A DNA stretch of 64,000 nt from assembly GCA_945876755.1 (NCBI GenBank), contig CAMCPM010000011.1:1-64000 (forward strand), read 5' to 3'. The position numbers and the translations under genes were made by a program. The notes below the pieces were generated by a model, which was given only the letters and a program-made list of their open reading frames with translations, ran no database searches and was not told the origin of the DNA. Positions 4,371 through 61,136 of this stretch are shown in pieces. Within the stretch, counting starts at the first letter, position 1. Each line of letters opens with the position of its first letter. This DNA is from an uncultured Clostridia bacterium (GTDB lineage Bacteria > Bacillota > Clostridia > Oscillospirales > Ruminococcaceae).

Positions 4371-5180
4371 ATGAACAGTAAAAAACAGAAAAGCATTTGG
4401 CACAACCGCATAACGTACATTATTCTTGGCTGGCTGCTTATCCTTGCTGCCGTTGCCTGCGATGTGGGAATAGCCGTACCTCGTTACGAAATTTTCACGG
4501 ACAAGGTCTCAAAGGACATAAAAATAGTTCTGCTGACGGATTTTCACAGCAGCAGCTATGGCGATGGCGGACAGGTGCTTATTGACGCTGTTGACAGGCA
4601 GAATCCCGATGTTATTCTTCTTGCAGGGGATATTATGGAGGATATTCGTCCTCATGAAAACAGTATGGAGCTGCTTTCGCAGCTTGGAGCTAAATACTCC
4701 TGCTATTATGTGACGGGAAACCACGAGGAATGGTCGGGTGAGGAGAAAAACATCAAGAATATCGTTCGTGAATGCGGAATTACCGTGCTGGAGGGGAATT
4801 ATGCAGATGTGGGTGATATCCGTATCTGCGGTGTGGACAACTCCCTTGGCGGCAGGCAGTTTGCGGACTGTATTGACGCAGCAGGTGAGAAATTTACGGT
4901 GCTGATGTCGCATCGTCCCGACTTTGTCGATTTTTACAGCGGAAAGGGCTTCGACCTTGTGGTATGCGGTCACGCTCATGGGGGTCAGGTCGTCATTCCC
5001 GGCATAGCAAACGGACTTTACGCTCCCAATCAGGGTATCTTTCCCGAATACGCAGGGGGACGTTACACTCTTGCGGACGGCTCTACCGAGATGATAGTCA
5101 GCCGAGGATTGTGCAAGAATATTCTGCCCCGTGTGTTCAATCAGCCCGAGGTAGTGGTTATAGAAATTCGGAGTTCGTAA
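4371..5180 (+). CDS. Membrane-anchored metallophosphoesterase (YaeI-like)
   Basis: Calcineurin-like phosphoesterase with an N-terminal transmembrane segment (about residues 14-34), so the catalytic domain is probably outside the membrane. Metal-binding motifs in order: TDFHSS near residue 57 (DxH), LAGDIMED near 80, TGNHEEW near 115, SHRPDFV near 180 and CGHAHGGQ near 199. The family includes enzymes acting on UDP-diacylglucosamine or phospholipid-like substrates; the substrate here is unknown. Its stop codon lies inside a degenerate copy of the heptanucleotide repeat that also flanks the S23-type gene. Confidence 0.85.
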   Translation: MNSKKQKSIWHNRITYIILGWLLILAAVACDVGIAVPRYEIFTDKVSKDIKIVLLTDFHSSSYGDGGQVLIDAVDRQNPDVILLAGDIMEDIRPHENSMELLSQLGAKYSCYYVTGNHEEWSGEEKNIKNIVRECGITVLEGNYADVGDIRICGVDNSLGGRQFADCIDAAGEKFTVLMSHRPDFVDFYSGKGFDLVVCGHAHGGQVVIPGIANGLYAPNQGIFPEYAGGRYTLADGSTEMIVSRGLCKNILPRVFNQPEVVVIEIRSS

Positions 5181-6793: not shown

Positions 6794-7360
6794 ATGATAA
6801 AAAAATTTGCGGCGGTTTTTACCGCAGTTGTTATGACTCTGGCGCTTGCGGGCTGTTCGGGCAAGTATGTTATGACCGAGGAGGACCTGGCGCTTCAGAA
6901 GTCTATTGAGGGCTACTGGGCTGCCGATGTCAGCACGGGTTACAACACTTTTGACGAGAACGGAAATCTGACTTGCATGGTCGTAATTGAGTTTACGGAC
7001 GATTTTAATTATCTTATGCACAATTGTCTGCTTGATGAAGGATATTCGCTGTCATATTCCCCCGTTCCGTACTCCTTTGAGGATAAAATGTTCAAGGTCG
7101 TAAACGAGGGTGTTCCGTCCTATGCAAGGGTAAGCGTCAGCGAGGACGGGAACACTATGTACTGGGTAACCGACGAAAAAACGGACACATATCTGAGACT
7201 TGACAAGGAGACTGCGGCAAGTCTTGGTATTCCCGAATACACTCCCGAAATGTGGACGGAAACCGAATCGGAAACAGGCAGCGAAACGGGTGCAGGTTCG
7301 GAAACAAATGAGGAAAGTATGGAGTCTCAAACGCAGGAGTCGGGCGCTGAGAGCGAGTAA
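6794..7360 (+). CDS. Putative lipoprotein of unknown function
   Basis: 188 aa with a lipoprotein signal (MIKKFAAVF, hydrophobic core, lipobox LAGC near residue 22), so predicted to be exported and lipid-anchored. The middle (residues 40-145) has a small beta-rich, lipocalin-like or DUF4923-like feel (GYWAADVSTGYNTFDENG), but I recognise no family. The C-terminal 40 residues are a Thr/Glu/Ser-rich low-complexity tail (TESETGSETGAGSE). GAAAGGA lies 11 nt upstream of the ATG. It sits between argG and argH without an obvious role in arginine synthesis. Confidence 0.75.
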   Translation: MIKKFAAVFTAVVMTLALAGCSGKYVMTEEDLALQKSIEGYWAADVSTGYNTFDENGNLTCMVVIEFTDDFNYLMHNCLLDEGYSLSYSPVPYSFEDKMFKVVNEGVPSYARVSVSEDGNTMYWVTDEKTDTYLRLDKETAASLGIPEYTPEMWTETESETGSETGAGSETNEESMESQTQESGAESE

Positions 7361-14709: not shown

Positions 14710-14750
14710 AAACGAAAGCCAAAGCTTTCGTTGTTAGACCAAACAAAGTC

Positions 14751-14830
14751 CCGACGTTTTACGGTTTTGCGCTTGCGCAAAATTTCTCACTGTTATGACA
14801 GTTACGACAGGTGAGAAAAGTAAAACTCGG
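14751..14830 (+). other. Multibranched inverted-repeat structure before argD
   Basis: An outer stem CCGA-c-GTTTTAC (14751-14762) pairs with GTAAAAC-TCGG (14820-14830). It encloses the hairpin TTTTGCGC/GCGCAAAA (14765-14782) and the stem TTTCTCAC/GTGAGAAA (14783-14790 with 14811-14818). It lies in the 305-bp gap between the lipase-like gene and argD. That gap otherwise holds the solo repeat, a terminator-like hairpin and the argD promoter. Confidence 0.55.
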
Positions 14831-14831
14831 A

Positions 14832-14855
14832 AACGAACGCTTGCGCTCGTTTTTT
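14832..14855 (+). terminator. Rho-independent terminator upstream of argD
   Basis: AACGAACGC pairs with GCGCTCGTT with one mismatch and is followed by six T residues (14850-14855). It would end transcription from the argB/lipase side before the argD promoter. Confidence 0.7.
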
Positions 14856-33316: not shown

Positions 33317-33361
33317 GGAAAGGAGTGCATTTTCCCGGTCGGGGAAATGGTTGTAAGTATG
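33317..33361 (+). promoter_or_regulatory. SD-hairpin-AUG leader of fliM
   Basis: GGAAAGGAG (33317-33325) is followed by a 9-bp hairpin CATTTTCCC/GGGGAAATG with loop GGTC (33328-33349, one T-G pair), then 9 nt, then ATG at 33359. The linear SD-to-AUG gap is 33 nt; folding reduces it to about 11 nt. The 3' arm ends in an in-frame ATG at 33347. Confidence 0.7.
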
Positions 33362-34403: not shown

Positions 34404-34566
34404 GGAAAGGAAGGATATAAGTTTGAAAATCTCTGATTTTCAAACATGAGTTTTGTTTTTCAGGACTATGACTGAACAAGTTCAGTTGTCCGAAATTTTC
34501 AAGTGAAAACCACAAAACATCGAGAGAGGAGGACATTTTCCCTACGGGAAAATGGTCATAAAAATG
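34404..34566 (+). promoter_or_regulatory. Structured composite leader of fliY
   Basis: In order: purine-rich SD-like GGAAAGGAAGG (34404-34414); perfect 11-bp hairpin GTTTGAAAATC/GATTTTCAAAC (34421-34445); a 9-residue mini-ORF MSFVFQDYD (34446-34475); long-range stem GTTTTGT-TTTTCA (34450-34462) with TGAAAA-cc-ACAAAAC (34504-34518) enclosing GGAC/GTCC and ACTGAAC/GTTCAGT (34463-34491). Then come AGGAGG (34527-34532), a perfect 9-bp hairpin CATTTTCCC/GGGAAAATG (34534-34554), 9 nt, and ATG at 34564. Confidence 0.7.
34446..34475 (+). CDS. Possible leader mini-ORF upstream of fliY
   Basis: ATG to TGA encoding MSFVFQDYD. The start follows directly after the 34421-34445 hairpin, with an SD-like AGGAAGG 6 nt before that hairpin. 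Whether it is translated is unknown. Confidence 0.3.
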   Translation: MSFVFQDYD

Positions 34567-35907
34567 AGCGATGATAAACTTACCATTGACGGATTCGGCG
34601 ATGTGGAAATGGATGCCATCGGCGAAATAATGAATATAACCATGGGTTCGGCTGCGACCGCAGTTTCAAATATGCTTTCTGCTAAGGTCTGGATAACCAC
34701 GCCCAAGGTCAATATTATCAAGTCCGATGAGCTGTCATTCCCGGAGCTTGAACCGTCTATAATGGTCAGAATAAAATATACCCAGGGCGTTACGGGACAG
34801 AACGTTCTCATTCTCAAGCAGAATGATGTTCAGCTTATCCTTAACCAGCTTATGGGTCTGCCGCTGGAGGTAACGGACGATTTCAAGTTCGACGAAATGA
34901 ACATCTCGGCGGTTTGCGAGGTTATGAATCAGATGATGGGAGCGTCCGCTACGGCGCTTTCGGAAATCATTGAAACTACTGTTGATATTTCCACTCCCGA
35001 AGCGATAGTTCAGGACGGAAGCGTCGAACAGGTCAAGGAGGAAATTTACGAGCTTACCGGTCAGGATTATGTCTGCACGGTCAAGTTTGACCTTACCATC
35101 GACGGTGTTATAAACTCGGAATTCATATCTGTGCTTACCATCGACCTTGCCAAGGAAATGGCTGAAAAGATGATGGCAGGATATAACAATATCATGGACA
35201 GCATTGAGGAGGCTGCTCCTGCACCTGCTTCGGAGCCTGCACCTGCTCCTGCTCCGTCATCGGGCGGCGGCGTGCTTTCTCAGGAGGAAATTGAAAAGCT
35301 TCTCAGCGGCGGTTCCGCTGCGGCAGAACAGCCTGCGCCTGCTCCTGCACCTCAGCCTGTTCCGCAGGCTCAGCCCATGCAGCAGCCTATGCCCGGTGCA
35401 ATGCCCCAGATGCCTTACGGTCAGCCCGGTCAGTTCGGTCAGCCTCCTATGCCTGACCCGAATATGTCGGCTATGTACGGTATGTATCCGCAGCAGGGTA
35501 TGTACCCTCAGCAGGGATATCCGCAGCAGGGAATGTATCCGCAGCAGAATATGATGCCTCAGCAGCCTGCTGTTAATATTCAGCCCGTTCAGCTTCAGAA
35601 TTTTGCTTCATATCAGAATTCAAGCCTTACTCAGGAGCAGAACGACAACTTGAAGCTGCTGATGAATGTTCCGCTGAATGTTACCGTTGAAATAGGCTCG
35701 GCTGTGAAAAAGGTCAAGGAGATACTTGAGTTCACGCAGGGTACTATTATTGAGCTGGAACGTCAGGCAGGCGCTCCCGTTGATATTATCGTAAACGGAA
35801 ATCTTATCGCAAAGGGCGACGTTGTTGTTATCGATGATAACTTTGCGGTCAGAATTACCGAAATAATCAAGTCAAAATTCCTTGAGACCCTCGGTGGAAA
35901 GGAATAA
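34564..35907 (+). CDS. fliY: Flagellar motor switch phosphatase FliY
   Basis: 447 aa. The N-terminal CheC-like domain has both phosphatase centres intact: D-x3-E-x2-N in DAIGEIMN near residue 17 and S-x3-E-x2-N in SAVCEVMN. A long Pro/Gln/Met-rich linker (about residues 218-360, including MYPQQG repeats) joins the C-terminal FliN/SpoA domain (NVPLNVTVEIGSAVKKVKEIL, LERQAGAPVDIIVNGNLIAKGDVVVID). Inside the linker, VLSQEEIEKLLSGG resembles the CheY-binding N-terminus of FliM. The protein dephosphorylates CheY-P at the C-ring. Confidence 0.93.
   Translation: MSDDKLTIDGFGDVEMDAIGEIMNITMGSAATAVSNMLSAKVWITTPKVNIIKSDELSFPELEPSIMVRIKYTQGVTGQNVLILKQNDVQLILNQLMGLPLEVTDDFKFDEMNISAVCEVMNQMMGASATALSEIIETTVDISTPEAIVQDGSVEQVKEEIYELTGQDYVCTVKFDLTIDGVINSEFISVLTIDLAKEMAEKMMAGYNNIMDSIEEAAPAPASEPAPAPAPSSGGGVLSQEEIEKLLSGGSAAAEQPAPAPAPQPVPQAQPMQQPMPGAMPQMPYGQPGQFGQPPMPDPNMSAMYGMYPQQGMYPQQGYPQQGMYPQQNMMPQQPAVNIQPVQLQNFASYQNSSLTQEQNDNLKLLMNVPLNVTVEIGSAVKKVKEILEFTQGTIIELERQAGAPVDIIVNGNLIAKGDVVVIDDNFAVRITEIIKSKFLETLGGKE
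35482..35547 (+). repeat. Short tandem repeat encoding MYPQQG units in FliY
   Basis: Three to four near-identical 15-18-nt units of the type TATCCGCAGCAGGGA in the fliY linker, coding for YPQQGM repeats. Prone to length change between strains. Confidence 0.7.
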
Positions 35908-60669: not shown

Positions 60670-60993
60670 TTATTTCATGTTACCTGTATCAATTTCTTTT
60701 TCGCAAAGGCTAAGTGCTTTGTCGGCAAAGCCTTTGTCGCATATTGTGATGATCCCCGCTTTTTTCCCAAGCGCATAGTAGATACCGTCAAGCGTAAGCT
60801 CTGTTTTTACGGCGGGAACGTTATGCTTTCCCGAAAAGAAGCGGACTTCTTTTTCGGTTTTAGGCGAAATATCCGATGCGATAATGACCGCACAGGCTTT
60901 TCCGTCAGAAAGAGCGTCCTTCATGGGGTCGAAGCCCATAACAAGCTTTCCGGCTTTGCGGCATATTGTAAGCAGACCGGTCAGATTACTCAT
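60670..60993 (-). CDS. ylxQ: L7Ae-family RNA-binding protein YlxQ
   Basis: 107 aa, L7Ae/L30e/S12e fold: [25 protein letters not shown] and [29 protein letters not shown]. Kink-turn RNA binding is the family role; the Bacillus homologue binds RNase P RNA. Start set at 60993 ([16 protein letters not shown]) as in homologues, although the SD lies 32 nt upstream across a hairpin (see leader). Lies between ylxR and infB as usual. Confidence 0.92.
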
Positions 60994-61136
60994 TGTCGTA
61001 ATCATGCTCCCGACAGGGAGCATATCCTCCTTTTCGGCGTTTTGTGCGGTTTTGCGTGCAAAATGAGTGACGGCAGTCACTCAAGCGCAAAACCCGTACC
61101 TTGAAAATCATTGATTTTCAAGGTTCAACTCCTTTT
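60991..61136 (-). promoter_or_regulatory. Structured composite leader of ylxQ
   Basis: Reading on the minus strand: AAAAGGAG within the ylxR end; 12-bp hairpin ACCTTGAAAATC/GATTTTCAAGGT spanning the ylxR stop (61124-61098); long-range stem GGTTTTGCG (61094-61086) with CGCAAAACC (61056-61048) around hairpin GAGTGAC/GTCACTC (61082-61065). Then AAGGAGG (61032-61026), a 9-bp hairpin TATGCTCCC/GGGAGCATG with loop TGTC (61024-61003, one T-G pair), 9 nt, and ATG at 60993. Same layout as the fliY leader. Confidence 0.68.

Follow-up and report, generated by a model that had tools for sequence, protein, structure and literature searches.

A dispersed structured repeat of gut Oscillospiraceae inserted between the SD and the start codon of fliY, and its candidate role as a carrier of a split ribosome-binding site

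In this work we ask why fliY, in a 64-kb stretch of DNA (64,000 nucleotides, hereafter the window), is preceded by a leader in which a strong SD is held away from the start codon by a perfect hairpin, and in which a further purine run and an elaborate structure lie upstream. The first-pass annotation had listed a purine run, hairpins, a mini-ORF, a long-range stem, an AGGAGG and an ATG in this leader, all of which are present (Table 1), and had read the whole as a dispersed structured element that makes initiation depend on folding. The dispersed structured element stands; what that reading overlooked, and what empty sites in related genomes reveal, is that the leader was inserted between the native SD of the gene and its native ATG.

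Table 1. Features of the fliY leader and of related sequences elsewhere in the window
Feature	Position	Strand	Basis
Native SD of fliY, stranded 5' of the element	34406..34414	+	Empty sites in relatives read GGAAAGGAAGGTTACATATA-ATG
Inserted element	34419..34561	+	Ends +/- ~3 nt; R1 match 34421-34566, 98 bits; empty sites
Hairpin I, 11 bp perfect, loop TCT	34421..34445	+	Sequence; fold; family covariation
Mini-ORF TTG...TGA	34423..34449	+	Sequence; frame not preserved in other copies
Three-way-junction domain, closed by long-range stem	34447..34523	+	Folds; R2 match 34421-34523, 79 bits
Replacement SD AGGAGG, element-borne	34527..34532	+	Sequence; comparison of copies
Hairpin III, 9 bp perfect, in the new SD/start spacer	34534..34554	+	Fold; covariation; chance control
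Native start codon ATG of fliY, in frame	34564..34566	+	Relatives' alignment starts 1 base before
SD-hairpin-ATG remnant before fliM, without 5' part	33317..33361	+	R1 29.6 bits; scan; relatives read GGAAAGGATGGTTGCAAAGATATG
Second copy, before ylxQ	60991..61123	-	R1 70.5 bits; empty in G011, G017; filled in G000, G003
Native SD AAAAGGAG of ylxQ, inside the end of ylxR	61136-61129	-	Empty in G011, G017
Family-B relative in free intergenic DNA, limited to hairpin I and junction, without SD end	14729..14852	-	R1 49.9 bits, R2 54 bits

The long-range stem of the fliY leader is of the TGAGTTTTGT / ACAAAACATCG type and encloses a hairpin, and the last three bases of the 3' arm of hairpin III (34552-34554) form an ATG in frame with the fliY start. 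The region 34404-34575 has a predicted folding energy of -47 kcal/mol, compared with -33.7 +/- 3.8 for shuffled sequences (z -3.5; 0 of 200 as low). From GGAG to ATG the distance is 32 nt linearly and 11 nt with hairpin III left out, in agreement with the earlier claim that the SD lies too far from the start when unfolded and near it when folded. An SD, a hairpin with a stem of at least 9 bp and an ATG occur together at three of the 1876 ATG triplets in the window, namely at the starts of fliY, ylxQ and fliM, and the same search in 20 whole-window dinucleotide shuffles found none (with stems of at least 8 bp, a mean of 0.1 and a maximum of 2). The layout had previously been noticed in front of ylxQ, where the copy proves genuine; the third site, at the fliM start (33359), had been missed. 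A looser scan (stem of at least 6 bp, 676 candidate starts) yielded two weaker sites besides, at 4371 and 49786, the latter being a 6-bp stem on the minus strand ahead of a 487-aa ORF.

BLAST searches of 41 genomes matched the fliY leader 10 times in the genome of the window itself, and other genomes of the genus had up to 21 matches. The copies, some 120-150 nt long, share a common plan, in which an SD-like run is followed by hairpin I and by a three-way junction that GUUUUGU/ACAAAAC closes, and a strong SD and hairpin III then lead to the start codon some 9 nt further on. The closest pair within one genome differs at 3 of 124 columns between unrelated flanks. A covariance model of the element (R1) found 83 matches spread over 82 loci (E of 0.001 or lower), and a second model restricted to hairpin I and the junction, holding no SD, hairpin III or ATG (R2), gave 122 matches in 138 loci, 120 of them distinct and 7 belonging to a family B that has no SD end. 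Copy numbers are lower bounds, since the scans scored part of the candidates: 150 of 3150 with R1 in the window's own genome, where the copy at 14729 was missed, and 30 per genome elsewhere. Such comparison establishes that the fliY leader is one copy of a dispersed structured repeat of the window's genus (gut Oscillospiraceae/Ruminococcus MAGs). Family-B relatives, at L045, L046, L047, L059 and at 14729-14852 of the window, have a AACGAAAGC-type hairpin I and a GTTTTAC/GTAAAAC stem, and runs such as AATTACGCATTACGAATT flank several of them.

The covariance-model search of related genomes that the first-pass annotation had proposed thus found recurrence, and it also found strong covariation. 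Over the whole structure, 38 of 49 pairs changed on both sides, with 338 cells so changed compared with 67 in shuffles and none of 500 as high, in an alignment that was fitted to the model and hence leans towards the structure. Nine of the 10 modelled pairs of hairpin I changed on both sides, as did all 9 modelled pairs of hairpin III across 83 copies, with 98.8% of cells paired; by this measure hairpin III is kept as a pairing and not as a sequence, changing freely with compensation. Extra inner hairpins in the junction domain, such as ATCGAGTGAAACTCGAT or TGACATTTATGTCA, were seen in L124, L117 at 4603, L122, L127 at 4703, L103 and L111.

Comparison of filled and empty sites demonstrates the insertion. 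Many relatives align with the window only from about one base before the fliY ATG onwards (BLAST, 41 genomes), and where they read GGAAAGGAAGGTTACATATA-ATG the window reads GGAAAGGAAGGATATAA-(element)-ATG. Judged by these relatives, the first purine run, GGAAAGGAAGG at 34404-34414 in front of hairpin I, is the original fliY SD. Two insertions in G006 have empty counterparts in sister genomes: the first reads AGGGAGGCAA(element)AAATG, with AGGGAGGCAAAAATG in G008 (flanks 94% identical) and GGAGGCAGAAATG in G007, which is also empty (94-95%), and the second reads TTCGGAGGTA(element)TATTTATG, with TTCGGAGGTATTTTATG in G008 (flanks 93% identical on the left and 85% on the right). A third, in G011, reads CGGAGGTA(element)AAAATG; its empty alleles read CGGAGGTAAAAATG in G000 and G002 (70-77% flank identity) and CGGAGGTCAAAATG in the closer G003 (88-90%). 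At these three best-matched sites no target sequence seems to have been lost; a target duplication is not clear at any of them and could span no more than some 2 nt.

A gene with the element in one genome lacks it in most of the sisters. Of 18 genomes read at hisA, G002 alone is filled; the regulator site is occupied in G000 and G011 (19 of 20 places read) and the ylxQ site in G000 and G003 (16 of 21 places read). A three-protein tree of 17 genomes joins G003 and G017 as sisters, with G011 next to them and G000 outside, and each double filling therefore arose either by two gains or by a single gain followed by losses; hairpin III differs in sequence between the two copies at each such site. 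As a separate observation, at the L118 gene the start in L242 (G009) is preceded by an SD and a different hairpin (AGATTTTTCC TC GGAAAAATCT) with no 5' part, and G007 and G008 are empty there.

This patchy occupancy bears on a proposal raised by the first-pass annotation, that of a switch or a temperature- or protein-responsive sensor. A dispersed cis-regulatory RNA (riboswitch, thermosensor or protein-binding leader), in which the folding of hairpin III co-regulates a set of genes, would accord with a conserved, covarying structure situated directly at initiation sites. However, the element is absent from the same gene in most sister genomes, hairpin III changes freely and may be missing altogether, with short spacing instead, and the downstream genes show no functional theme, which speaks against a riboswitch. 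Among 62 downstream proteins, from 106 downstream frames, 113 Pfam families were matched, 104 of them in a single protein each, the commonest being ABC_tran with 6. Nor did Rfam match the element: there were no matches in the window at gathering thresholds, and at E up to 1 six loci gave 5 weak matches, none on element copies. We consider co-regulation by such an RNA very unlikely. The downstream genes include those for tRNA synthetases, an Obg-type GTPase, IspD and a YidC-type protein, and genes of these kinds are often essential.

The placement of the copies points instead to the initiation site itself. Removing 2 duplicate places, the 7 family-B copies and 2 copies at a contig end from the 122 R2 matches leaves 120, 113 and finally 111, and 101 of these 111 assessable cores are immediately followed by an SD and a start codon, although most census loci were first found by a query containing the SD end and ATG. 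The script had classed 78 copies as hairpin plus start, 15 as hairpin-less and 20 as other, and re-reading by eye gave 78 + 14 + 9. Among the ten exceptions, two adjoin an apparent tRNA gene (L287 and L318, judged by eye), and in some, such as L115 and L144, the gene's own SD lies further on; two copies away from a gene start, L028 at 4488 and L037, have a broken SD. An exact core pattern that demands neither SD nor ATG matched 33 records, 6 of them chance matches in other phyla and 27 from Oscillospiraceae, Ruminococcus and Clostridia MAGs, and 25 of these 27 precede an SD and start. On the upstream side, an SD-like run was found within 15 nt of 99 of 111 copies (a different set, 111 copies whose left flank reaches 80 nt or more), compared with a mean of 26.4 and a maximum of 39 in 200 random draws, and a stricter SD motif in 83, compared with 13.7 and 22. 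By these counts the element usually resides in the SD-to-start spacer of a gene, a compartment roughly estimated from the window at a tenth of intergenic DNA. A binomial for this placement presumes that insertion is uniform across intergenic DNA and that the copies are unrelated. Neither strictly holds, and many copies share ancestry; we do not rely on it. We infer that targeting, and not selection alone, puts the element in these spacers; selection favouring harmless places could contribute to the bias.

How, then, would translation start on such a leader? Among the 78 hairpin copies, the linear distance from GGAG to the start is 27-38 nt in 76 (typically about 32), the effective distance with hairpin III left out is 9-13 nt in 66, and in 64 copies 8-10 nt separate the hairpin's end from the start codon, the few spacing outliers being start codons wrongly chosen by the script. 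Where copies were classed as hairpin-less, the element's SD lies 5-12 nt from the start in 12 of 15; the other three comprise a gene with its own SD further on, a mismatched hairpin and a TTG start passed over by the script. One gene, which we take from its N-terminus to encode glutamate racemase, occurs in both forms, with hairpin III in G006 and with AGAGGAGATAATTATG and no hairpin in G008 and G009. Copies with and without the hairpin back the earlier suggestion that hairpin III would bring SD and AUG to a working distance, and translation probably uses the new SD with hairpin III folded. At another gene the full element is present in G011 and only the SD and hairpin III in G000 (L136 and L025), and the fliM leader of the window looks like such a decayed remnant; therefore the 5' part of the element seems to decay and the part needed for translation to stay.

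The geometry, with an SD that is far away linearly, a hairpin in between and a normal distance when folded, is that of T4 gene 25. In the available portion of the published account, T4 genes 25 and 38 have SD-AUG distances of 27 and 22 nt linearly, which intervening structure brings to 11 and 5 nt, and destabilising that structure lowers initiation (PMC3014915). These are split ribosome-binding sites like the one proposed here, in which structure shortens the SD-AUG distance; unlike the element, a dispersed insertion known from sequence, they are, in the same portion, single phage genes tested at the bench (PMC3014915).

Alternatively, the ribosome could start on the ATG that ends the 3' arm of hairpin III, which would lengthen the protein by a few N-terminal residues of the MVI-M kind. 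The two ATGs are 9 nt apart, and hence in frame, in 51 of the 56 copies in which the script found a second ATG before the last, and at L080 the usual ATG reads AAG with the hairpin ATG still open. Against this, the hairpin ATG is base-paired, and unfolding would place it some 20 nt from the SD; several hairpins have no ATG there and hairpin-less copies start at the usual codon, so that we regard initiation there as highly improbable. L080 (near 7186-7260) and L092 (near 923-1000) are the same gene in two MAGs, and the former, in which the hairpin ATG is open in frame, perhaps represents a start-codon shift.

We attach a similarly small likelihood to coupled translation, in which the native SD would drive a short frame from the TTG of hairpin I that stops near the start codon. 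That TTG closely follows the native SD, and its frame stops at the element's 3' end in 21 of 111 copies; however, it stops inside the core in 37 and in the SD/hairpin part in 13, reads into the gene in 12 and lacks a TTG in 28, and the fliY frame is already closed at 34449, a long way short of the start codon. That the element encodes a peptide was rejected, as the frame from the TTG is not preserved among the 111 copies.

Beyond the genus, R2 matches were found in 16 of 148 genomes of the family, two of these from the window's genus, in a lossy scan that scored 30 candidates per genome. Loci read in G146, G069 and G118, of other genera, lack hairpin III but have the native SD, hairpin I, the junction, the new SD and the start, while one locus each in G148 and G144 has a hairpin between the new SD and the start, and copies in G132 and G119 are family-B-like, with no SD end. 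Given the other-genus copies that lack hairpin III or the SD end, the core may be an older repeat that later gained an SD end. Neither IMG/VR, searched by exact pattern, nor phages or plasmids gave a match to the element at the settings used.

IS200/IS605-derived and REP elements have hairpins near both ends and no clear target duplication, as does the element; unlike theirs, its host genomes mostly (17 of 21) have no Y1 transposase. A Y1 transposase (IS200/IS605, REP-RAYT) was accordingly rejected as the mover, with no match in those 17 of 21 genus genomes, G000, G001 and G002 included, and so was a reverse transcriptase (retroelement, group II intron), which gave no match in 14 of 21, G000 among them; the two enzymes occur in 4 and 7 of the 21, several of these genomes being incomplete. 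Neither was found in G000, G001, G002, G006 and G010, some of them incomplete, each of which has at least 10 BLAST matches. Among the copies read, none proved to be an autonomous relative sharing the element's ends, as might be expected beside a MITE.

Short, non-coding and present in many copies with unrelated flanks and with both filled and empty sites, the element has the properties of a small interspersed repeat. It resembles BOX, RUP and SPRITE of Streptococcus pneumoniae, small structured interspersed repeats without genes of their own which, in the available part of their description, are enriched downstream of genes, whereas the element lies between SD and start and carries an SD (PMC3049150). 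It likewise resembles ERIC/RU of enterobacteria, which are about 100-170 bp, intergenic and highly structured, with mobility inferred; the portion of that account available to us describes neither SD-start placement nor a replacement ribosome-binding site (PMC2759123). Full-text literature searches, with most subscription journals outside their reach, found no description of the element, a real repeat whose parts have precedents in small interspersed repeats and in the T4 split ribosome-binding site. We know of no precedent for its SD-start placement or for its built-in replacement ribosome-binding site.

Comparison of sequences from genomes that include metagenome assemblies leads us to propose, with a probability of roughly three in four, that this is a small structured insertion element of the SD-start spacer carrying a split ribosome-binding site. 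Insertion would strand the native SD in front of hairpin I, the element's 3' end would supply a new strong SD and hairpin III, and hairpin III would fold out the extra distance, leaving the new SD about 9-13 nt from the native AUG. With such a replacement split ribosome-binding site, insertion even before important genes would therefore be tolerated. Movement would depend on a putative factor acting in trans, whose recognition might act on RNA or on single-stranded DNA around the start codon. Somewhat less firmly, we favour the view that the element represents a class of mobile elements which target the translation initiation site, bring a replacement split ribosome-binding site as cargo and are near-neutral when inserted before important genes.

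Annotation, too, is misled by the element. For both fliY and fliM of the window the longest ORF starts at the hairpin III ATG (34552 and 33347, respectively), and gene finders may therefore add a false N-terminal extension of the MVI-M kind to both. Furthermore, the copies and their matched empty alleles would constitute a natural library of split ribosome-binding sites, in which spacing, hairpin and expression are directly comparable. If our reading is true, these gut bacteria harbour a mobile element that spares its host by rebuilding the ribosome-binding site it splits.
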